Shown: positions 5,850 to 25,610 of the stretch, piece after piece
Layout: each line of letters starts with the position of its first letter
Position numbering within the stretch: position 1 is the first letter of the stretch
Source: Spirochaetota bacterium
GTDB lineage: Bacteria > Spirochaetota > UBA4802 > UBA5368
Length of the DNA: 64,000 bases
Assembly: GCA_004297825.1 (NCBI GenBank)
Contig: SCSX01000089.1
Coordinates: 1 to 64,000 of the forward strand
Direction: 5' to 3'
Notes under the pieces: generated by a model
Told to the model about the DNA's origin: nothing
Database searches by the model: none
Seen by the model: the letters and a program-made list of their open reading frames with translations, nothing else
Program-made: the position numbers and the translations under genes

Positions 5850-5880
5850 TTGACAACCGGCTGGAAGGTAGTAGTAGGAT
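5850..5880 (+). promoter_or_regulatory. Candidate promoter of the fused glycyl radical enzyme
   Basis: A perfect TTGACA (5850-5855) is followed after a long 19-base spacer by TAGGAT (5875-5880). The long spacer suggests a weak promoter that needs an activator or is tightly controlled. It sits directly upstream of the palindromes at 5885-5919. Confidence 0.45.
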
Positions 5881-5884
5881 GTAA

Positions 5885-5919
5885 TATATACTTGAAGTAT
5901 ATACAAATTAAAGTATACT
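5885..5919. promoter_or_regulatory. AT-rich palindromic operator-like sites
   Basis: TATATACTTGAAGTATATA (5885-5903) is a perfect 9-bp inverted repeat with one central base. A second palindrome, AGTATACT (5912-5919), follows and repeats the half-site AAGTATA 16 bases after the first. They lie between the promoter and the ribosome site AAGGAG (5934-5939), where a repressor or redox regulator could act. The stretch is strikingly AT-rich for this genome. The binding protein is unknown. Confidence 0.5.
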
Positions 5920-5945
5920 ATCATACATGTGGCAAGGAGCTCGAT

Positions 5946-8900
5946 GTGCAGATAACACAGACCCAGGAACCCTTGAATCACAGCGATATCGATCTGTCGT
6001 TTGAAGAGGGCCGGAACACGGCTTTCGACAGGCTCCGTGTCTTGAAAATACAGCGAACCTGCGTCCATGACGGCCCGGGGATTCGCACGACGATATTCTT
6101 CCAGGGCTGTAACCTTCGATGCGCATGGTGCCAGAACCCGGAGGCGCTGTCTTTCAAGGGCGAATCGGCGCCCGGGCGCGCGTACTCGATTTCCGATATA
6201 ATGGAAGTTGTTTCGAGGGATAAAGAGTATTATTACAAAACCGGCGGCGGCGTGACCCTGAGCGGCGGCGAGCCCCTCCTCCAGGAGCCGGACAGCATGG
6301 TGCGCCTGTTGAAATTATTGAAAGAGGAACGGGTGAATGTTTCCGCGGAAACGACGCTTCACGCGCCCTGGAAAAATATTGGCGCGGTCGCCCCGTACAT
6401 CGACCTGTTTCTCGTCGACCTCAAGGTCGTGGGCGACGACGACCTCCATGTGAAATTCACCGGTCACGACAGCGCCCTGATACGCGGCAATATCCGGAAA
6501 CTCGTCGCTCTCAACGCCACCGTGAAGTTCCGCATGGTCATGGTCCCCGGTTACAATGACGGCGAGGGCCAGGTAAAAGCGGCCGCGGATTTTCTGAAGT
6601 CGATAGGGCATGGATCGCTGGAATTGCTGAAATACCACAACATGTATGAAGATAAGGAACGGCGCATGGGGCTTGTGCGTACATCGCTGAATATTTCCCC
6701 GGAACAGAGCCGTACGGCGGTCGAAAATGCGGCCGGGTTATTTAAATCCCTTGGTATCAATGCCGTGTGCCATGAGTTGGATGATTCCAGGGGGAAGGCC
6801 GTTTTTACCGATCGCGTCGGGCAGATACGGAACGAAATCCGGGAAAGCGACTATCATCTCTGCTTCGAGGCCTCCGGACTGAAAACGGATTATTACAGGA
6901 AGAATGGTTTCAAAAAGCCGACCCCCATCCACCGGTCGGAACGTCTTGCATATGTATTGAATCACAAGGAAATAATCGTGTATCCCCGCGAGCTGCTTGT
7001 CGGAAATTTTACCGCGAAAAGGGTCGGGGGCCAGGTGTGGGAGGAACATTTCGGCGTTCTGCTTATTTCGATTCTTCACCAGATCAACCGGCAGACGCCG
7101 GTTTCATTCAAATGCTCTTTCAGGGACAAGCTTAAATTCTATTTCAAAATATTCCCCTTCTGGAAGAAGCACAGCATCCTGGCGAAGGTTAATCCCGCCC
7201 TCTCCGATTTTATGCTGACCGTCGCGCGGTGTTCCGAGATGAATGTCGGTTTCAACAATAACATAGCGTCGATCGCGCATTTCGTCGTCAACTTCGAACG
7301 AATCCTCGAACTGGGAACCACCGGCATCGCGGATGAGATCAGGGAGAAGCAAAAGGAAAACCCGGAGAGCAGCAAGGATTTTTACGCCGGCGCGCTTATC
7401 GCCCTCCAGGCGCTGGAGGATTTCGCGCAACGGTATTCCGACAGCCTGATAAGCCTGGGCAGGAAGGAAGCCGATCCCGTGCGCCGGAGGGAACTTGAAG
7501 AAATGGCCGCGATCTGCAGGCATGTTCCCAAACACCCCGCACGTACCTACCATGAGGCCCTCCAGGGCATGTTGTTTCTTCAGATCGCGCTTTGCATCGA
7601 GTCCTATGAGAATGCGGTCTCTTTTGGAAGGCTGGACCAGATATTGTATCCGTACTATAAAAGGGATATGGAAGCGGGGATCGTCACGTACGAGAAGGCG
7701 AAAGAGCTGCTGGCCCTGTTCATGCTCAAGATGGACGAATGCATTTTAATCAGCGACGGCGATACCTATTTGAGGATCGGAAGGCTGTTCGAGACCCAGT
7801 CCACGGACCAGACGGTGACGTTGGGCGGTATGGGCAGGGACGGCCGGGACGCGACGAATGACGTCACATACATGCTCCTGGATATCTGCGAGCTGCAGCC
7901 GCTCGCTGTCAACATGACGGCGCGCATTCACGAGGACAGCCCCGCCGCATACCTGGACCGGATTGCCGAGGTGTATATCAACGGGGCGCCCATGCCGGCG
8001 TTGTACAATGATCATATCTACATCGATTCCCTGCGGGGCCACTACGCCACTACCGAGAGCGACGCGAGAAATTACGCGATCGTGGGGTGCGTGGAACCCA
8101 ACGCCTCCGACGATCATTTCGGCAACACCGACTGCGCCAACATGAACGTGGTGCTGCCATTTCTGCAGGCCTTGAAGGGCGAGGAGCACGATTTATGGAA
8201 CTTCGGCAGAATTGATCAGCTGGAAAAGATACTCACCAAGTTCGTCGAATACAACTTTCGCGGCGATAATAAATTCTCGAGATTTGTCGTCACGCGGTAC
8301 CACAAAGCCCGCGGCAGGTTCAAAAAGCGAAGAGGGCTTGCCGCGTATGCACCGCCCTCGGGCATGGATGAATTGCTTTCGCGCTACCAGGAGCGTTTGA
8401 ATCGCCTGGCGGCGTCGATACTGGCCGACCACCAGAAGATCGAAAAGGTTCTCCGCCAGGACTTTACGACGCCGCTCGCCTCCACCCTCTTCAAGGGATG
8501 CGTCGAGAGCGGAAAGGACGTCTACGACGGCGGCGCGACGTTCAACAGCAGCGGCATCCAGGCGGTGGGCATCACGGATGTCGCCGATTCGCTGTTCGCC
8601 CTGGACGAGATCGTTTTTCGAAAGCGGATGTACTCGATCGAGGAGGTCATCGATGCCCTCGACCACGATTTCGAGGGGGAATATTTTCAGCGGATCAGAT
8701 CGGCATTGCTCGATGTGCCGAAATTCGGAAATGACGCGTCACGCGAAGCCCGCGAATGGGTGAACAGGGCCTCCGAAATTTACGTGAACGCGCTGAATTC
8801 GGTGGAAAATTGTCCGCGCAACGGCATATACACCGCCGGCTACTATGCCCTGAACGTCAATATCATCTATGGATTGAAAACGCCTTCGCTGCCCTCGGGC

Positions 8901-9290
8901 AGATTGAGAGGCGTTCCGCTCGCCAACAGCGTCACCCCGCACTACGGAATGGAGTTCGCCGATCTCCTGTCGTCGCTCAATTCCGTGGCCGGCGTCGACT
9001 TCGCACAGTATGCGCCTAACGGCACCACGGTGACGTTTACCATAGATTCGGCGCTGTTCCAGGGTCGGGACGGGGTGCGGAACCTGGCGGGCATTATCGG
9101 GACGTATTTTAACAAGGGCGGCATGCAATTCCAGCCCAACGTCATCAACCGGGAAATACTTCTGGGGGCGTACGAGAACCCCGAAAAGCACAAGTATCTC
9201 CTGGTCAGGGTCGCGGGGTACTGCGCCTACTTCAACGACCTTTCCGATGAATTGAAAAAGGTCATCATTAACAGGACTTGTTATTCATGA
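5946..9290 (+). CDS. Fused glycyl-radical-enzyme activase and glycyl radical enzyme (GDH/CutC-type superfamily)
   Basis: One continuous 1114-residue frame encodes two proteins that are normally separate. Residues about 25-290 are a radical-SAM activase: HDGPGIRTT, the CX3CX2C iron-sulfur motif CNLRCAWC (C55, C59, C62) and TLSGGEPLLQ. There is no ferredoxin insert after the motif. Residues about 300-1114 are a glycyl radical enzyme with the thiyl cysteine and general-base glutamate in VGCVEPN (C715, E717) and the radical glycine in RVAGYCAYF (G1091). The GCVEP motif places it with dehydratases and lyases such as glycerol dehydratase or choline lyase, not pyruvate formate-lyase. The substrate is unknown and no transporter or microcompartment gene is nearby. 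The GTG start is chosen for AAGGAG six bases upstream; an in-frame start at 5850 would lie inside the promoter. Oxygen-sensitive anaerobic function is inferred. Confidence 0.88.
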   Translation: MQITQTQEPLNHSDIDLSFEEGRNTAFDRLRVLKIQRTCVHDGPGIRTTIFFQGCNLRCAWCQNPEALSFKGESAPGRAYSISDIMEVVSRDKEYYYKTGGGVTLSGGEPLLQEPDSMVRLLKLLKEERVNVSAETTLHAPWKNIGAVAPYIDLFLVDLKVVGDDDLHVKFTGHDSALIRGNIRKLVALNATVKFRMVMVPGYNDGEGQVKAAADFLKSIGHGSLELLKYHNMYEDKERRMGLVRTSLNISPEQSRTAVENAAGLFKSLGINAVCHELDDSRGKAVFTDRVGQIRNEIRESDYHLCFEASGLKTDYYRKNGFKKPTPIHRSERLAYVLNHKEIIVYPRELLVGNFTAKRVGGQVWEEHFGVLLISILHQINRQTPVSFKCSFRDKLKFYFKIFPFWKKHSILAKVNPALSDFMLTVARCSEMNVGFNNNIASIAHFVVNFERILELGTTGIADEIREKQKENPESSKDFYAGALIALQALEDFAQRYSDSLISLGRKEADPVRRRELEEMAAICRHVPKHPARTYHEALQGMLFLQIALCIESYENAVSFGRLDQILYPYYKRDMEAGIVTYEKAKELLALFMLKMDECILISDGDTYLRIGRLFETQSTDQTVTLGGMGRDGRDATNDVTYMLLDICELQPLAVNMTARIHEDSPAAYLDRIAEVYINGAPMPALYNDHIYIDSLRGHYATTESDARNYAIVGCVEPNASDDHFGNTDCANMNVVLPFLQALKGEEHDLWNFGRIDQLEKILTKFVEYNFRGDNKFSRFVVTRYHKARGRFKKRRGLAAYAPPSGMDELLSRYQERLNRLAASILADHQKIEKVLRQDFTTPLASTLFKGCVESGKDVYDGGATFNSSGIQAVGITDVADSLFALDEIVFRKRMYSIEEVIDALDHDFEGEYFQRIRSALLDVPKFGNDASREAREWVNRASEIYVNALNSVENCPRNGIYTAGYYALNVNIIYGLKTPSLPSGRLRGVPLANSVTPHYGMEFADLLSSLNSVAGVDFAQYAPNGTTVTFTIDSALFQGRDGVRNLAGIIGTYFNKGGMQFQPNVINREILLGAYENPEKHKYLLVRVAGYCAYFNDLSDELKKVIINRTCYS

Positions 9291-12693: not shown

Positions 12694-15600
12694 ATGAAAA
12701 CCGAGACCGAAATCTACACGCCCGCCAACCATGTCAGGGTGGTGACCGCAACGTCGCTTTTCGACGGCCATGACGCCGCAATAAATATCATCCGGCGCAT
12801 CTTGCAGGATACCGGCGTCGAGGTGATCCACCTTGGGCATAACCGCTCCGTAAACGAGATCGTGCAGGCCGCGATCGACGAGGACGTCCAGGGGATCGCG
12901 GTGTCCTGCTACCAGGGCGGGCACGTGGAATTCTTCAAGTATATCGTCGACCTGTTGAAAGAGAGGGGCGCGCCGCATATCAAGGTATTCGGGGGCGGCG
13001 GGGGCGTGATCGTTCCCGAGGAGATCAAGGAGCTCGAGGCATATGGGGTCACCAGGATTTACTCCCCCGACGACGGCGTCCGTATGGGGCTCCAGGGCAT
13101 GATCAACGACCTGGTCGCCAGGATCGACACACCCGCATCGCGCGACGGGGAGCCGGATTTCGACAAACTCGCCTCCGGGGACCACGCGGTGATCGCCGGC
13201 TTCATCACCCACGCCGAAAGCGCGCGCACCGACGATCCCGTGCGTCACACGAAGCTCATGGAGGGCATACGCGCGAGGATACCGGAGCGGGCCATTCCGG
13301 TTATCGGCTTCACCGGAACCGGAGGGGCGGGAAAATCATCGCTCATAGACGAGCTCGTCGTGCGCCTTCTGCGGGACAACGAATCGCTCCGCATCGCGGT
13401 GCTTTGCAGCGATCCCTCGAGACGCAAGACCGGCGGCGCGCTCCTGGGGGACCGCATCCGGATGAACGCCATTACCGAGACGCGCGTGTACATGCGCTCC
13501 TTCGCCACCCGCTCGTCCGGCCGGGAAGTATCGGACGCGATCGCCGACGCGATCGAGATCGCGAAGGCCGCGAGGTTCGACCTGGTGATCGCGGAGACGG
13601 CCGGGGCGGGGCAGGCGGACGCGGGCATATCGGAGCTGGTGGACATTCCCGTGTACGTGATGACGAGCGAGTACGGCGCCGCCTCGCAGCTCGAGAAAAT
13701 CGCGATGCTGGACTACGCGGACGTGATTGTCATCAACAAGTTCGAGAAGCAGGGAAGCGAGGACGCCCACCGGGACGTGCAGAAGCAGGTCCAGCGGAAT
13801 CGGCGCGCATTCGAAAAGGACGCGGGGGAGATGCCGGTATTCGGGACGATCGCCTCGCGTTTCAACGACGAGGGCGTGACGGCGCTCTACCATCATGTGC
13901 TCGAGCTTATCAGGGAAAAGAAGGGCGTTGCCCTGGAGAGCAAGTACCCGCGCACCGCGATCAAGGCGCCCGCATCCAAGACCATCATCGTGCCCCCGGA
14001 GCGCGTGCGCTACCTCGCCGAGATCGCCGATACCGTGCGTGGCTACCATGCGCACACGAGCGCGCAGGCGGAGGCGGTGCGCATGCTCTGGCACGTCCGC
14101 GAGACGGGCAGGGCGCTCGCGGACGACGAGCGCGAGGAGGATGAGGCCCTGGTTGCGCGGATCCGGATTGAGGAGCAGAAGCGCGAGGAGGCGCTCACCC
14201 CCGAGACGGCGCGGTTGCTCACGGACTGGGAGACAATTAAGGAAGATTATCATAAAGACGAGCTGGTGTACCAGGTACGCGGGAGGGACATACGCGTTCC
14301 CCTGTACTCGAAATCGCTGGCGGGGAAAAAGATCCCCAAGGTCGCGCTCCCCGATTTCACCGATCCCGGGGAGACCTACCGGTGGATGCGCGAGGAGAAC
14401 GTGCCGGGATGGTTCCCCTTCACCGCGGGCGTGTTCCCGATCAAGCGCATGGACGAGGACCCCACCCGGATGTTCGCGGGCGAGGGGGACCCGGCGCGGA
14501 CGAACCGGCGCTTCAAGCTGCTTTCAGGCAACTACGAGGCGAAGCGCCTCTCGACCGCGTTCGACTCGGTCACGCTGTACGGTTGGGACCCGGATATCCG
14601 CCCCGACATCTACGGGAAGGTGGGTACCTCCGGCGTGAGCGTCTGCACCCTGGACGACGTGAAGGTCCTGTACGGCGGCTTCGACCTGTGCGCCCCCTCG
14701 ACCTCCGTCTCGATGACGATCAACGGGCCCGCGCCCATCATGCTGGCGATGTTCCTGAACACCGCGATCGACCAGAAGGTCGACCGCGTCACGGCCGAAA
14801 CCGGGAGGAAGCCCGACGCCGCCGAATACGAAGCTATAAAGAGCGACGTCCTGAGAAGCGTGCGCGGCACCGTGCAGGCCGACATCCTGAAAGAGGACCA
14901 GGGCCAGAACACCTGCATCTTTTCCATCGACTTCGCGCTCAAGATGATGGGCGACATCCAGGAATACCTGATCAAGAACGACGTGCGGAACCTCTACTCC
15001 GTATCGATCTCCGGCTACCATATCGCGGAGGCGGGGGCGAACCCCATCACCCAGCTCGCCTTCACGCTCGCGAACGGTTTCACCTACGTGGAATACTATC
15101 TGTCCAGGGGCATGGAGCTGGACAGCTTCGCGCCGAACCTCTCGTTTTTCTTTTCCAACGGCATGGATCCCGAGTACACGGTTATCGGCAGGGTTGCGCG
15201 GCGCATCTGGGCGATCGTCATGCGTGAAAAATACAAAGGCTCGGAGCGGGCGCAGATGCTCAAGTACCACATACAGACGTCGGGAAGGTCATTGCACTGC
15301 CAGGAAATCCAGTTCAACGATATCCGCACCACGCTGCAGGCGCTGTGCGCCGTGTATGACAACTGCAACAGCCTGCACACGAACGCCTACGACGAGGCGA
15401 TCACCACGCCCAGCGAGGAGTCGGTGCGCAGGGCGCTCGCGATCCAGCAGATCATCAACCGCGAGTGGGGCCTCGCGAAGAATGAGAACCCCGAGCAGGG
15501 AAGCTTTATCGTGGAGGAGCTTACGAGCCTTGTCGAGGAGGCGGTGCTCTGCGAGTTCGAGCGCATCACCGAGCGGGGTGGCGTGCTGGGCGCGATGGAG

Positions 15601-15966
15601 AAGGGATACCAGAGGAGCGCGATCCAGGACGAGTCGCTCACCTACGAGAAATTGAAGCACTCGGGGGAGCTTCCCATTATCGGCGTGAACACGTTTTTAA
15701 GCGGAAGCGAGGCGTCGTGCGTCCAGTCCTCGGTTACGCTCGCGCGCGCGACCGAGGACGAGAAACAGTCCCAGCTCGCGCGCCTTAGCGCGTTCCACGA
15801 GCGTAACGCGGCAGAGGCGCCGGGCGCGCTCGCGCGCCTGCAGGCGGTCGCGGTCGCGGGCGGGAACGTCTTCGAGGAGATGATGTCCACGGTGCGCTGC
15901 TGCAGCCTGGGCCAGATCACGAAGGCGCTCTACCTGGTAGGGGGGCAGTATAGGAGGAGTATGTAG
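12694..15966 (+). CDS. icmF: Fused isobutyryl-CoA mutase IcmF
   Basis: A coenzyme B12-dependent carbon-skeleton mutase interconverting isobutyryl-CoA and n-butyryl-CoA, with its own G-protein chaperone. The 1090 residues hold the IcmF order: B12-binding domain (about 1-140, DGHD motif with H26 as the lower cobalt ligand), MeaI-type GTPase (P-loop GTGGAGKSS near residue 207) and the mutase TIM barrel (from about 560). [12 protein letters not shown] takes the place of the tyrosine-containing TMY segment of methylmalonyl-CoA mutase, favouring isobutyryl-CoA or a related branched substrate such as isovaleryl-CoA. The C-terminal segment [17 protein letters not shown] is strongly conserved. Control by the upstream TetR is inferred. 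Confidence 0.95.
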
Positions 15967-16089: not shown

Positions 16090-16971
16090 TTATATGTTTG
16101 GACGATCAAATGTCAATTTTTCTTTTGTGACTGCACTAAAGAATTCTTTGGACCAAAGGTCAGTGGAATCCGGGTTTTTAATAAAAGGACGGATGTCTGT
16201 TTTAGCCTGTTGGAAATCGACACTATCAAAACGCCTGTCGAGTCGCTCTCGAACGTCCGCCTCGTCAAGGACCTCTTCCGATTTCAGGTGGCCAGTTTGC
16301 CTCATCCTGCTGGTGAGATGTGCGATATTTAAGGGAATTCCTTTTGATAAATACCAGATATAATCATAAAAATCTCTCCCTTTCACTCGAGTCCGCCATC
16401 CACGGCAAAGAAGGGCATGGACCTTGCCGGCAAAGAGCGAGGATGGTGCGTAAATCCTTACGTAATACGGAACAGGCAATAGTTGATACTTAACTTCATA
16501 CAGCGCCCCGTCTGGCGGATCGGTATCCACTTCCAGTTTAATTTGCAGATATTCATCCGGATGGACGCCGCTTACCAGCGGCATAATCGGCGCTATCTTG
16601 AGAAGATGCATATGGGTCCCGCCTTTGATAAACGCTGATTTTACCGCTGAATCGTTTCGCTTGATCTTTTCCGTTACCGTCATCTCCATCCCGTATGCGC
16701 CGAGTTCATCTTGTACGACCTTGGTATACGCGGATAAGTCAAATTGAGGGTTCGGGGCTATAAGACTGAAATCGAGATCCTCTGAAAAACGATCCAGGCC
16801 GTAAAAAAGGCGCAGGGAGGTACCTCCGTAAAAAGCCGCTTCATTAAAAAATCCGCCCCGATAAAGTCCCAGAAGTGCGATCTCCTGGATGATTTCCTTC
16901 AAGGCGTTCTTATAATCCGTAATTGTCTTACAGTGATAGGATTCGATCATACTCTGGATTGCGCTATGCAT
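16090..16971 (-). CDS. abiEii: AbiEii/AbiGii-type nucleotidyltransferase toxin
   Basis: The toxin of an AbiE-type system, from a family shown or proposed to be nucleotidyltransferases that stop growth, for example during phage infection. At 293 residues it has the polymerase-beta-like motif GGTSLRLFY (49-57) with DLDF (65-68), then KLEVD and the later lysine- and aspartate-rich KGRDFYDYIWYL. All AbiEii motifs appear intact, so it is probably active. The ATG at 16971 overlaps the antitoxin stop codon by eight bases, which implies translational coupling. A longer in-frame extension upstream overlaps the antitoxin and lacks a ribosome site. Confidence 0.88.
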   Translation of the reverse strand: MHSAIQSMIESYHCKTITDYKNALKEIIQEIALLGLYRGGFFNEAAFYGGTSLRLFYGLDRFSEDLDFSLIAPNPQFDLSAYTKVVQDELGAYGMEMTVTEKIKRNDSAVKSAFIKGGTHMHLLKIAPIMPLVSGVHPDEYLQIKLEVDTDPPDGALYEVKYQLLPVPYYVRIYAPSSLFAGKVHALLCRGWRTRVKGRDFYDYIWYLSKGIPLNIAHLTSRMRQTGHLKSEEVLDEADVRERLDRRFDSVDFQQAKTDIRPFIKNPDSTDLWSKEFFSAVTKEKLTFDRPNI

Positions 16972-17563
16972 TGAGCGCCTCCCTTTTAAACCATTCGAAA
17001 AACAGCGTGGTTGCTTTCTTTCTATATCGTGGCGCCATGAATGCGATGCCTTCTGAATCCATCGAAGCAATCCTTTCGTATTCCATCCGCCAGTCGTCAA
17101 AGAGCAGCGATGTGAGCGACTTCACGCTTGATATTCCTTTGGCTTTGTAGAGGGTATCAAGCAATGCTTTCTCCGGAGTCGCCAGGAGATAACCCTGGGT
17201 TTGTTCTTCCTTGCGCAGGATCCCATAGGGATATATGGAAGCAGGAAGGTAATAATAATGAAAGTTCCCTAAAGGAGTCTGGAATGTGCGATTTTTGTTT
17301 TTACAATAGGTCGCGGATGTGAGCGCTTCCACCCTCTCGGGAACCAAACCATAATATCCCAGGGCGTATTCAAAAGAAATGTAGGAGGGACCGTAAATGA
17401 CGGCAGCTAGGCTCATTATTGAATAGTCGTGATTACCCGCGTCAAGGAAAACGCCGCGACGGACCTGAATTAAATCACCAGCATTCAGCATTCGGGTTAT
17501 TCGGGCCTTTGGCGAGGCATAACTTCTCAATTCATGCATGAGAAGCATATGATCCTTATACAT
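16964..17563 (-). CDS. abiEi: AbiEi-type antitoxin and autoregulator
   Basis: The cognate antitoxin: about 199 residues with an N-terminal winged-helix region (ELRSYASPKARITRMLNAGDLIQVRRGVF) and the AbiEi core (YISFEYALGYYGLVPERV, ATPEKALLDTLY). Family members bind inverted repeats in their own promoter through the winged helix. The start chosen is the ATG at 17563, six bases after GGAG; a TTG seven codons upstream lies in the middle of the operator. The pair is AT-richer than its surroundings, consistent with horizontal acquisition. A terminator separates it from tRNA-Val. Confidence 0.87.
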   Translation of the reverse strand: MYKDHMLLMHELRSYASPKARITRMLNAGDLIQVRRGVFLDAGNHDYSIMSLAAVIYGPSYISFEYALGYYGLVPERVEALTSATYCKNKNRTFQTPLGNFHYYYLPASIYPYGILRKEEQTQGYLLATPEKALLDTLYKAKGISSVKSLTSLLFDDWRMEYERIASMDSEGIAFMAPRYRKKATTLFFEWFKREALNA

Positions 17564-17566
17564 TAT

Positions 17567-17607
17567 TTTCTCCAGTAAGTACAATAATACTGTACTTACT
17601 GGAGAAA
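17567..17607. promoter_or_regulatory. Long inverted-repeat operator of abiE
   Basis: TTTCTCCAGTAAGTACA (17567-17583), a 7-base spacer ATAATAC, and its exact complement (17591-17607) form a 41-bp palindrome with 17-bp arms. The near arm contains the GGAG ribosome site of abiEi. Binding by AbiEi would block both transcription and translation initiation. Confidence 0.75.
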
Positions 17608-22257: not shown

Positions 22258-23412
22258 TCAGCCCCCGACGAGCTTCCTGAAATGCCGGCAGTTTTCGGCC
22301 AGGTCGTCGGAATGGCGGAAAAGTCCGCCCCCCATGAGGTAGACCACGTCGTTCCCGTAGAATTCCCGCATCTCGGGGACGTTTTCGAGCGTCATGCCGC
22401 CGCCGGGGGAGGGGAAGATGGGGGCAAGGGGACCCATGGGCTCCCTGCAGCCGCGGGCGATCGAGCCGCATTCGTCACGGCTGAAGGAAAACCGTCCCCC
22501 GAAGTTGGGGAAGATCGAGGCGTCGGCACCGGCGAGGCGCGCGAGTTGGCCGAAAATGCAGTAATGCGAAATGCCGTTCCCCCCCATGACGAAGCTCCCC
22601 TGGAGGGCGGGATGGGCGAGGATGGGGAGTCCGATATCATTCTCCGCCGCGAGGAGCCTCATGGCGTCCGGTCCCGTGATGCCGGGCGCGACGAGCAGGG
22701 CGCCCGCGCCCGCTTCTTTCGCATAACGGGCGCGCGCGACGACCAGGTGGGCGGGGGCGGTGACGTTGGGGGCGTAGAGGCAGCGCATCCCCGTTTCGCG
22801 GTTCGCGTCCATGACGGCCTGCGCGCACCGCGCGACGCGCTCCTCGAAGGGCGCGAAGGGCTGGTCGGTGAGGCCGTGATCGTCCTTGATGAGATCGATG
22901 CCGCCCAGGGCGAACCGCCCGGCGAGCGAGGCAAGCCCCCGCGCGGTGAGGCCCATGGGCTTGAGCGCCGTCGAGAGCAGGGGCCGATTCTCCGCTCCCA
23001 GGACCCGGCGCAGGCCGGCGATTCCGAACCGCGGACCCGTGAAGCGCGCGTAGAGCGACGCGGAGAGGTCCAGAGCCTGGACGAAAATGCCCGGCTTGAT
23101 GCTGATATTCCCGAAGACGACGTTCAGGAGCTGGGTGAGCTCGCCCGCGGCCGTTTCCACGGGGAAGCCTATGACCGCCTCGAACGAGCCGTGCGCCCCC
23201 TTCCCGAACGATTCTATCCGCCCGAGCACCGAATCGCGTATGAAGCCCTCCGGGATGAGATCGTCGGGGAATTCCACGGTCTGCTCCAGGCAGATGTCCC
23301 TCGCGCGCGCGAGGGCCTCGTCCTCACTGCCTTCCAGCCGGTAGATCACCCGGAAGCGCTCCCCGGAGGAGAGTCCGGGCGGCGACTGGAACTCCACAAG
23401 CTCGCGTATCAT
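22258..23412 (-). CDS. RuBisCO-like protein (form IV)
   Basis: A 384-residue member of the RuBisCO superfamily not expected to fix CO2. The barrel segments align with RuBisCO large subunit: STALKPMGLT (K151 equals catalytic K175), GGIDLIKDDHG (K176 equals carbamylated K201, D178 equals D203) and YLMGGGLFRH (phosphate site). Several catalytic residues differ: KPK becomes KPM, E204 becomes H179, R295 becomes P268, H298 becomes Q271, and loop-6 K334 becomes R307. Known RLPs enolise or isomerise methylthio-sugar phosphates, or split 3-oxo-isoapionate phosphate. It follows two transketolase subunits in one operon, 10 bases after the second stop. The substrate is unknown. Confidence 0.88.
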   Translation of the reverse strand: MIRELVEFQSPPGLSSGERFRVIYRLEGSEDEALARARDICLEQTVEFPDDLIPEGFIRDSVLGRIESFGKGAHGSFEAVIGFPVETAAGELTQLLNVVFGNISIKPGIFVQALDLSASLYARFTGPRFGIAGLRRVLGAENRPLLSTALKPMGLTARGLASLAGRFALGGIDLIKDDHGLTDQPFAPFEERVARCAQAVMDANRETGMRCLYAPNVTAPAHLVVARARYAKEAGAGALLVAPGITGPDAMRLLAAENDIGLPILAHPALQGSFVMGGNGISHYCIFGQLARLAGADASIFPNFGGRFSFSRDECGSIARGCREPMGPLAPIFPSPGGGMTLENVPEMREFYGNDVVYLMGGGLFRHSDDLAENCRHFRKLVGG

Positions 23413-23422
23413 CGCGCGCCGC

Positions 23423-24430
23423 CTAGAGGGCCTCGGCCTTGGCCGCGCTGTGCACGGGGGCCAGGTAAATTCCGGCGAGGTCGGACTCGGTGACGGCGAA
23501 GCGCGCGTCCAGTAGCGTTTCCACGGCGCGCACCAGGCTCATCGCGTCCAGCCCGTATTCCTTCTTTAAATAGGGGAGGCTCGCGCCGTGCGCGAAGGTG
23601 TCCTTGAGGCCCAGTTTCACGAGCCTCTTCGCGAGACCGTGCGCGGCGATGAGCTCGGCGACGGCGGTGCCCAGGCCCCCGATCACGGTGTGGTTTTCCA
23701 TGGTGATGACCCCGCGACCGGCTTTGGCTATTGAGTCGAGCACGCGCGGATCGTCGAAGGGCTTCAGGGTGGTGACGTGCAGGTGCTCGATCGAGGCGCC
23801 CTTCGCGGCGAGCGCTTTTGCCGCGCGCATCGCCTCCTCGGTGCAGATTCCAGACGAGAGAAGGGTGATATCGGTCCCCCGGCTTATGACGCGCGCCTCG
23901 CCCACGCGCAGCGGGTTGGTCTCGTCGAAGAGCCGGGGGATTTCCCCGCGGAGCATGCGCACATAGACCGGGCCGGGCACCCCGTACGCGGCGTCGAGCA
24001 CGCTCTTCACGTCCGTCGCGTCGCCCGCTTCAAGCACCGTCATGTTAGGAAGGGCGCGCATCACGGCGATGTCCTCGATCGCCTGGTGCGTCGCGCCGCC
24101 GGGGGTGGTGATGCCCGGGAGGAAGCCGAACATTTTCACCGGGAGGTTCGGGTAGGCGACCGACATCGCGATCTGGTCCAGGGCGCGGCGGTAAATGAAG
24201 ACCGCGAAGGTGTGGATCAGGGGCGTGAATCCCTGGCGCGCGAGCCCCCCCGCGAAGGAGAGCATGTTCTGCTCCGCGATTCCCATGGAGAGGAAGCGGT
24301 CCGGGTACGCGTCGCGGAAGAGGTCTATCTCCGTGGAGCTCGTGAGATCGGCCGAGAGGACGAGCACATCCGGCCTGTCCTTGGCCCACTCGACCAGGTG
24401 ACGCGCGTGCACGCGGGAAAGAATTTCCAT
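23423..24430 (-). CDS. Transketolase C-terminal subunit
   Basis: The pyrimidine-binding half of a two-gene transketolase, 335 residues. The catalytic glutamate lies in MGIAEQNMLSFAGG, followed by GGATHQAIEDIAVMRALPNM, typical of transketolase and DXS C-terminal halves. The C-terminal domain (from about residue 190) has the SSGICTEEAM and TLKPFDD segments. It pairs with the N-terminal subunit encoded three bases upstream. Split transketolases occur in archaea, in anaerobic bacteria and in branched-pentose (apiose) pathways. The downstream RuBisCO-like protein suggests a dedicated ketose-phosphate pathway. Confidence 0.9.
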   Translation of the reverse strand: MEILSRVHARHLVEWAKDRPDVLVLSADLTSSTEIDLFRDAYPDRFLSMGIAEQNMLSFAGGLARQGFTPLIHTFAVFIYRRALDQIAMSVAYPNLPVKMFGFLPGITTPGGATHQAIEDIAVMRALPNMTVLEAGDATDVKSVLDAAYGVPGPVYVRMLRGEIPRLFDETNPLRVGEARVISRGTDITLLSSGICTEEAMRAAKALAAKGASIEHLHVTTLKPFDDPRVLDSIAKAGRGVITMENHTVIGGLGTAVAELIAAHGLAKRLVKLGLKDTFAHGASLPYLKKEYGLDAMSLVRAVETLLDARFAVTESDLAGIYLAPVHSAAKAEAL

Positions 24431-24433
24431 GGC

Positions 24434-25378
24434 CTAGTGTCCCTCCCCGAAAAGCTCTTCGAGCGCGTGCGCATAACGCTCCCGCTCATCGTCGCCCGTG
24501 AAGCGGAGGTAGTGGAACTTTGGATACCGGGAGCGCAGGAGCTCGATCCCCCGGCAGGGATCGGTGTCGGCGAGGACGAACAGGGGGCGGCCGTCGGGCG
24601 GGAGGGAGCTGGCGCGCGCGATCCCCTCGATGTCGTGCCCGTCGATGCGCAGGACGCGCGCCCCGAACGACGCGAGTCTCCCCTCCAGCGGTTCGATGTT
24701 CATGACCGAGTCCATCTTCCCGTCGCACTGGTAGCCGTTGATATCGGCGAATACGAGCATGGAGCCCAGGCCGTGGAAAGACATCGCCTGCACGGCCTCC
24801 CAGGTCTGGCCTATCTGGAACTCGCCGTCGGACATGAAGACCACGGTGCGCCCGGTCTCGCCCGCGCGGGCGCGGCCCATCGCGATCCCGGCCGCCTGGC
24901 TGAGTCCCTGTCCCAGGGAACCGGTCATGATCTCCATCCCCGGGGAATGCTCGGCGCCGATCATCTCGACGACGCCGCCGTCCTTGTTGAACTCGTCAAG
25001 TCCGCATTCGTCCATGCGCCCCGCCTCGATGAGCGCGGCGTAGAGGACGAGCGAGTACTGCGAAGGGGACAGGTAGAAGCGGTCGCGTTCCGGCGCCCGC
25101 GCGCCGTGGAAGGCGGCCCCGGTCCGGTAGTCCGGATTGCCCGGTCCCGGCACGCCCGGGAAGCGCGGCGGCACGATGGGTTTCGCGACCGGTCCCAGGT
25201 TGAGCACCCTGAGATACAGGGTCGCGAAGAGCTCCGCTGAGGAGCATGCCTGGCTCAGGTAGCCCCCGTTGTTCTTCACGGTGTGCGCGAGCACGCGCCT
25301 GCGGATGCCGCGCGCGGCACGGGCGGCGTGTACGGTCCAGTCGTGTGCGGGAGCGCTCTCTTTACGGTGTTTCGGCAT
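24434..25378 (-). CDS. Transketolase N-terminal subunit
   Basis: The thiamine-diphosphate-binding half, 314 residues, transferring two-carbon units together with the C-terminal subunit. The ThDP motif begins at FMSDGEFQIGQTWEA and ends at ADINGYQ, with serine in place of the usual first glycine of GDG. GSLGQGLSQAAGIAMG and NGGYLSQACSSAELFATLY are normal family features. The ATG at 25378 gives MPKHRKESA; longer frames upstream have no ribosome site. It is the first gene of the three-gene operon. A full-length transketolase is not present in this window. Confidence 0.9.
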   Translation of the reverse strand: MPKHRKESAPAHDWTVHAARAARGIRRRVLAHTVKNNGGYLSQACSSAELFATLYLRVLNLGPVAKPIVPPRFPGVPGPGNPDYRTGAAFHGARAPERDRFYLSPSQYSLVLYAALIEAGRMDECGLDEFNKDGGVVEMIGAEHSPGMEIMTGSLGQGLSQAAGIAMGRARAGETGRTVVFMSDGEFQIGQTWEAVQAMSFHGLGSMLVFADINGYQCDGKMDSVMNIEPLEGRLASFGARVLRIDGHDIEGIARASSLPPDGRPLFVLADTDPCRGIELLRSRYPKFHYLRFTGDDERERYAHALEELFGEGH

Positions 25379-25610
25379 GGGGACAGGATAGCGGGGTAAA
25401 GTCTGAATGCAATCGAAAAACGACCGGAATCGCACCGGTGGTTCACATAGGGAGGGGAATATCGGTGTCGACGCTACCATTGAACGGCCAATTAAATCGG
25501 GTGTGAATTATTTTTCGGGCGCCAGGATCCCCGCCGGGAAAACAGTTCATATTTTTCATTCCCCGTTCGTATTCACTCCGGACGCTCAGTTTTGTCCCGG
25601 AGGATACGGA

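Follow-up and report, generated by a model that had tools for sequence, protein, structure and literature searches.

We analyzed a 64,000-nucleotide stretch of DNA from a Spirochaetota bacterium (contig SCSX01000089.1 of assembly GCA_004297825.1, hereafter the window), in which the gene for a RuBisCO-like protein (RLP) is preceded by tktN and tktC, the genes for the two halves of a split transketolase. This three-gene cassette probably sets apart a route, independent of oxygen, for the salvage of 5'-deoxynucleoside by-products of S-adenosylmethionine (SAM), chiefly 5'-methylthioadenosine (MTA), in which a dedicated transketolase would cleave 1-methylthioxylulose-5-phosphate. All three genes are intact and lie on the minus strand: tktN (24434-25378) encodes the N-terminal half of a specialized split transketolase, which binds Mg and the diphosphate of thiamine diphosphate (ThDP); tktC (23423-24430, 335 aa) encodes the pyrimidine-binding and C-terminal half, with the catalytic Glu (E411 equivalent) retained; and the RLP gene (22258-23412) encodes 384 aa. 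The spacers are 3 bases between tktN and tktC (24431-24433) and 10 bases between tktC and the RLP gene (23413-23422). The open reading frame (ORF) of tktN extends as far as 25480 (24434-25480); the ATG at 25378 is favored as its start because it fits the lengths of the orthologs (about 302-320 aa). Pfam matches were found to RuBisCO_large (PF00016) for the RLP (108 bits, cut-off 30.1), to Transket_pyr (107 bits) and Transketolase_C (80 bits) for TktC, and to Transketolase_N for TktN (59 bits, cut-off 22).

By its sequence, the RLP falls in the DeepYkr clade as a predicted 5-methylthioribulose-1-phosphate 1,3-isomerase, and as neither MtnW nor OiaX. The nearest solved structure is 3qfw, and in a quick tree that held long branches, 84 family members and 3qfw formed one clade of 85 rows, itself on a long branch (100 by the Shimodaira-Hasegawa-like approximate likelihood ratio test, SH-aLRT), separate from MtnW (99 SH-aLRT) and from the OiaX-containing group (99 SH-aLRT). 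The initial annotation had named placement in the classical MtnW clade as the result that would speak against its proposal of a new route, and the tree placed the protein outside it. MtnW was rejected on its scores as well (221 bits against an NCBIfam cut-off of 409, and 177 against 513.6) and by the absence of KDDE and K123, and OiaX was rejected with 87 bits against an NCBIfam cut-off of 700. At the position of E204 of RuBisCO, the protein has the His of a KDDH motif (22876-22887, minus strand), whereas the MtnW, OiaX, form I, and form III proteins compared have KDDE; together with K175, HP, an Arg at the K334 position, and the retained N123, KDDH makes up an active-site signature common to 3qfw. 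Since KDDH was part of one of the two patterns used in our scan, its conservation inside the locus set is partly built in; plasmid-borne relatives, which are independent of the scan pattern, as is 3qfw, carry the signature as well. Three related spirochaetes of the same order as the window organism (loci L012, L013, and L014) have a second type of RLP with 34-36% identity, which forms its own branch, with KDDE and HM as active-site motifs, and is neither MtnW nor DeepYkr.

We take 3qfw to be RLP1 of Rhodopseudomonas palustris, for which the support is the cupin linkage of a relative: the plasmid-borne relative closest to 3qfw lies in an RLP-cupin-cysE run. R. palustris RLP1 converts methylthioribulose-1-phosphate to 1-methylthioxylulose-5-phosphate with a kcat of 1.3 per s, and the cupin encoded next to it is a 1-methylthioxylulose-5-phosphate methylsulfurylase, which frees methanethiol (PMC5893883).

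The operon is conserved well beyond the window. A search with the RLP returned 148 relatives, among which the tktN-tktC-RLP order was seen in six other loci from several families, and a scan of species genomes returned more than 500 relatives, the best 80 of which were retained. In a tblastn census of 85 loci, which comprised the best-scoring 80 and five others, many of them in metagenome-assembled genomes (MAGs), and which is not an unbiased survey, TktC and/or TktN was encoded upstream of the RLP gene and in the same orientation at 63 loci from more than ten phyla; the others were mostly contig run-offs or cupin carriers. Pairwise distances of the RLP and TktC co-varied (Mantel r = 0.77, 58 loci, p = 0.001). 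The linkage and this co-variation together argue that the arrangement is not due to chance, and the closely spaced operon described in the initial annotation was borne out by its coordinates, intactness, and Pfam domains as well as by this linkage. The hosts include Firmicutes (acetogens and heliobacteria among them), Spirochaetota, Nitrospirota, Chloroflexota, Planctomycetota, Myxococcota, Acidobacteriota, and Calditrichota, and also a Thioploca MAG, alphaproteobacterial plasmids, and a Lokiarchaeota MAG (L101), in which the cassette is either misbinned or the result of transfer to Asgard archaea.

The operon context, for which neighbors were identified by the clustering of adjacent ORFs and by curated models, is that of methionine (5'-deoxynucleoside) salvage and not of apiose metabolism. 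In Clostridium ljungdahlii, genes for MtnA (427 bits, cut-off 279) and MtnK (432 bits, cut-off 275) lie directly upstream of tktN, with a ribose-type ATP-binding cassette (ABC) transporter farther upstream, and the mtnK-mtnA-tktN-tktC-RLP order recurs in C. drakei, Anaerosolibacter, an Anaerolineae MAG, and the Lokiarchaeota MAG. Plasmids of Rhizobium rosettiformans and Pararhizobium qamdonense carry mtnK, mtnA, a gene labeled 'DXS N-terminal domain', one labeled 'transketolase C-terminal domain', and the RLP gene end to end, beside a divergent sugar ABC transporter. Genes of the MTA/5'-methylthioinosine phosphorylase type (mtnP-type) immediately follow the RLP gene at two loci (L048 and L061), and among the 93 operon neighbors scanned, the MtnA family was the commonest (6), followed by the phosphorylase superfamily (3). 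Pyridoxal phosphate (PLP)-dependent thiol-using enzymes (O-acetylhomoserine sulfhydrylase or cystathionine gamma-synthase-like proteins and cysteine synthase) are encoded next to both cupin and transketolase cassettes, in one case only 7 bases downstream of the RLP gene within the window's own genus, which hints that thiol is released by both routes. In an Anaerolineae MAG (L091, 11100-12833), the RLP gene is followed by an overlapping gene for ribulose-phosphate 3-epimerase and then by one for an LsrF-like thiolase. A possible task of the epimerase is to recycle 1-methylthioribulose-5-phosphate, a side product of the RLP.

Both protein types also occur together in the literature on apiose and isoapionate catabolism, as the AplAB transketolase and OiaX, and the initial annotation had pointed to such breakdown. 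We consider this scarcely credible for the present cassette because of the OiaX score and the position in the tree given above, and because mtnA, mtnK, and mtnP recur near the cassette, while no sugar-acid kinase such as that associated with OiaX, no dehydrogenase, and no apionate gene does. Of the two substrates proposed, a branched or a sulfur-containing pentose phosphate, the sulfur-containing one is likely. The cassette was further described as standing alone without a kinase, isomerase, or transporter, which holds inside the window and not beyond it, since mtnP and mtnA are present on other contigs of the genome, and MtnK, MtnA, and a sugar ABC transporter are encoded in or beside the operon elsewhere.

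The transketolase also alternates with the cupin. In the census, tktNC stood beside the RLP gene at 63 loci and the cupin gene at 7, and both at none; TktC orthologs (at least 65% identity) were not found in any of the 7 cupin-locus genomes. At the level of genomes, the cupin (at least 50% identity) was present in 1 of 22 with TktNC versus 9 of 16 without it (Fisher p = 0.0005), and cupin-linked and transketolase-linked RLPs were intermixed in the RLP tree. The simplest reading is that the cupin and TktNC are alternative solutions for one intermediate, 1-methylthioxylulose-5-phosphate.

The transketolase itself has been remodeled. The 58 aligned TktC sequences of the cassettes grouped as one clade (100 SH-aLRT); they are at least 51% identical to one another and at most 41% identical to the other transketolases tested, with 33-41% to ordinary split transketolases. 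Among solved structures, TktC and TktN come closest to the paired chains of the split transketolase from Carboxydothermus (6yaj and 6yak). Both subunits, each of which corresponds to only half of the model, scored below all cut-offs of the transketolase equivalog models. In Escherichia coli numbering, the ThDP/Mg and catalytic residues D155, N185, E411, F434, and H473 are retained, as is R520. The position of H100, which in E. coli transketolase binds the C1 hydroxyl, is Met in 48 and Leu in 2 of 50 TktN orthologs (VEMIGAEH, 24947-24970, minus strand), the register being slightly uncertain due to a one-residue gap alongside in the alignment. The His of the SGHPG motif (H26) is Tyr in all 50 (NNGGYLSQ, 25250-25273, minus strand), and in the TktC motif FLPGITTPGGATHQ (24083-24124, minus strand), H461 is replaced by Phe and D469 by Gly in 58 of 58, with H473 kept in 58 of 58. 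In transketolase, H26, H461, and D469 have been assigned to substrate binding (PMC4601599). The rhizobial TktN and TktC orthologs have the identical residue signature, and the family is also marked by the conserved H73, H216, and H281 of TktC and by an insertion in TktN. Judged from these residues, the pattern is what one expects for an enzyme in which the reaction type is kept and the substrate changed to one without a C1 hydroxyl. Some spirochaetes and one Nitrospirota genome have tktN and tktC fused into a single ORF of about 640-700 aa (L099 and L109, and also G155 and G161).

The distant likeness to ordinary split transketolases might be taken to mean that TktNC serves the pentose-phosphate pathway in general, with the RLP gene as a chance neighbor. 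This is highly improbable because the genome already encodes a full transketolase (748 bits, cut-off 682), DXS (740 bits, above the cut-off), and two ordinary split transketolases, because the cassette family forms a separate clade with a near-invariant loss of substrate-binding residues, and because the linkage to the RLP gene has been kept over more than ten phyla. A general pentose-phosphate or DXS role was rejected on the grounds that these other enzymes are better candidates and that the residues of TktNC differ.

The remaining gene content of the window's genome is also consistent with MTA salvage. On contigs other than that of the window, it encodes MtnP (312 bits, cut-off 274.85), MtnA, and the O-acetylhomoserine sulfhydrylase MetY (668 bits, cut-off 495). 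No match to acireductone dioxygenase (MtnD; PF03079) was found in this genome, which is 95% complete, nor was a cupin homolog at E 1e-8. Among the routes tested, the RLP/TktNC cassette is therefore the only one that would give a complete path from MTA through methanethiol to methionine.

The proposed route would begin with the conversion of MTA to 5-methylthioribose-1-phosphate by MtnP, as in the window's genome, or by a nucleosidase and MtnK in others; MtnA would then form 5-methylthioribulose-1-phosphate, and the RLP would shift the carbonyl by 1,3-isomerization to give 1-methylthioxylulose-5-phosphate. These three steps are suggested by homology to characterized enzymes and by operon context. 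At the fourth step, the TktN/TktC heteromer would stand in for the cupin methylsulfurylase, adding ThDP to C2 and cutting the C2-C3 bond with the release of glyceraldehyde-3-phosphate; context, the complementarity with the cupin, and the remodeled pocket all point to this substrate. The two-carbon unit would most likely lose methanethiol by beta-elimination to leave acetyl-ThDP, followed by hydrolysis or phosphorolysis, and O-acetylhomoserine sulfhydrylase would return methanethiol to methionine. Related eliminations are the loss of sulfite in sulfoacetaldehyde acetyltransferase and of water in phosphoketolase; taken alone, this elimination chemistry, which we infer by analogy, has somewhat less than an even chance of being correct. 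No recurring dehydrogenase, kinase, or phosphotransacetylase was present among the 93 operon neighbors that would decide what becomes of the two-carbon unit. As a tentative proposal, TktN/TktC may be a new ThDP-dependent, thiol-eliminating 1-methylthioxylulose-5-phosphate lyase that forms glyceraldehyde-3-phosphate, methanethiol, and acetyl-phosphate or acetate.

Two other courses share most of these steps, and our confidence in them and in the MTA pathway proposed here therefore overlaps. In one, TktNC would cut 1-methylthioxylulose-5-phosphate but do no more than protonate the two-carbon fragment, so that 2-(methylthio)acetaldehyde would form and be reduced to methylthioethanol, as in the dihydroxyacetone phosphate (DHAP) shunt. 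The release of a free aldehyde is ordinary ThDP chemistry, and both compounds are known products of that shunt (PMC5893883, PMC10986504); however, no alcohol or aldehyde dehydrogenase family recurred among the operon neighbors, and the O-acetylhomoserine sulfhydrylase of the genome, though a widespread enzyme, fits the direct release of methanethiol. We consider this course rather unlikely. The other, to which we give a limited but not negligible chance, is that 5'-deoxyadenosine or 5-deoxyribose is salvaged instead of MTA: the RLP would convert 5-deoxyribulose-1-phosphate to 1-deoxyxylulose-5-phosphate (DXP), and TktNC would cut DXP to glyceraldehyde-3-phosphate and acetaldehyde, or hand the two-carbon unit to an aldehyde. 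In its favor, many hosts are anaerobes, in which radical SAM enzymes are expected to abound; a donor with no C1 hydroxyl would fit the absence of H26 and H100; and MtnK- and MtnA-like enzymes handle 5-deoxyribose in known clusters (PMC6079011). On the other hand, TktNC alternates next to this RLP with the cupin, whose substrate is the methylthio product (PMC5893883); 5-deoxyribose is handled in the known route by a class II aldolase, without an RLP; and some cassettes adjoin genes for thiol-using PLP enzymes. In the MTA pathway as we propose it, 5-deoxyribulose-1-phosphate from 5'-deoxyadenosine may use the same enzymes, by way of DXP to acetaldehyde.

Several points weigh against the MTA salvage role. 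The alternation with the cupin is not complete: with the genomes selected for their cupin left out, the Fisher test gave p = 0.06; of the nine genomes without TktNC that were not picked for an adjacent cupin, 3 had a clear cupin elsewhere, 3 had only weak matches, and 3 had none, and the genome of L060 has both TktNC and the cupin. Remodeling of the pocket does not extend to every position, H66 being His in half of the cassette family, and the changes of D469 to Gly and H461 to Phe might equally mean another donor or acceptor. Neither mtnP nor mtnA is linked to the cassette in the window's genome. The identity of 3qfw as R. palustris RLP1 is presumed, with support from the cupin linkage of its relative, and the role of the cassette as a whole is predicted from sequence and context.

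Three other loci in the window were also noted. In a single ORF of 1146 aa (5850-9290, plus strand), residues 82-239 form a radical-SAM activase (PF04055), which is fused to a glycyl radical enzyme with a pyruvate formate-lyase-like part (321-778) and a Gly_radical domain (1025-1129); for an activase to share a chain with its target seems unusual. A protein of 1090 aa (12694-15966, plus strand) is an IcmF-like fusion of B12-binding, MeaB GTPase, and methylmalonyl-CoA mutase parts. Next to tRNA-Val, an AbiEii-type nucleotidyltransferase toxin gene (PF08843) is overlapped by an upstream ORF in the antitoxin position, which has no Pfam match, and the two (16090-17584, minus strand) are a probable type IV toxin-antitoxin pair.

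The recycling of MTA and 5'-deoxyadenosine in anaerobes is only partly known. In the open-access literature searched, we found no description of a transketolase-linked RLP in methylthio-sugar salvage; the formation of 7-deoxysedoheptulose by a promiscuous transketolase (PMC8102628) and the existence of unexplained Dxs-less genomes (PMC10663253) have been reported. We provisionally regard the RLP/TktNC cassette as an undescribed version of methionine salvage, possibly with a new enzyme activity. If correct, this would give a function to a transketolase family now labeled 'transketolase' or 'DXS N-terminal domain', correct the use of this family in models of the pentose-phosphate pathway, account for genomes that carry the RLP without the cupin, and add an undescribed biological source of methanethiol. 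A thiol-eliminating lyase would further imply a widespread anaerobic methionine salvage that recovers carbon, and possibly energy, besides sulfur. The cassette is present in culturable organisms, namely, C. ljungdahlii, Heliobacterium, and R. rosettiformans.

Among known systems, the MTA-isoprenoid shunt of Rhodospirillum rubrum and R. palustris, which uses a DeepYkr RLP (Rru_A1998 / RPA2169) and a cupin (Rru_A2000 / RPA2170), shares with the cassette its feed through MtnP and MtnA, the RLP clade and active-site motifs, independence from oxygen, and an O-acetylhomoserine sulfhydrylase that can close the cycle; the cassette has a split transketolase in place of the cupin, with glyceraldehyde-3-phosphate, a two-carbon unit, and methanethiol as predicted products rather than DXP. 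The DHAP(-ethylene) shunt and 5-deoxyribose disposal (MtnP or MtnK, MtnA, and the class II aldolase Ald2/DrdA) have the same first two enzymes and also break a carbon-carbon bond to give a triose phosphate plus a C2 fragment. However, the aldolase of the DHAP shunt cuts methylthioribulose-1-phosphate straight to DHAP with no RLP, whereas in the cassette the RLP would isomerize and a ThDP enzyme cut, with glyceraldehyde-3-phosphate as the predicted product. The canonical MtnW methionine salvage of Bacillus likewise starts from MTA and uses an RLP, but requires acireductone dioxygenase and O2, and MtnW belongs to another clade (N123 to Lys, KDDE). The AplAB and OiaX pathways also combine transketolase halves with an RLP, from which the cassette differs by its RLP clade and by having no kinase or dehydrogenase partners. 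The Carboxydothermus split transketolase shares the two-subunit ThDP architecture and catalytic residues with TktNC, whereas their identity is about 41% or less, and the cassette enzyme has Tyr, Met, Phe, and Gly in place of substrate-binding His and Asp residues, together with a conserved insertion before the DRF motif.

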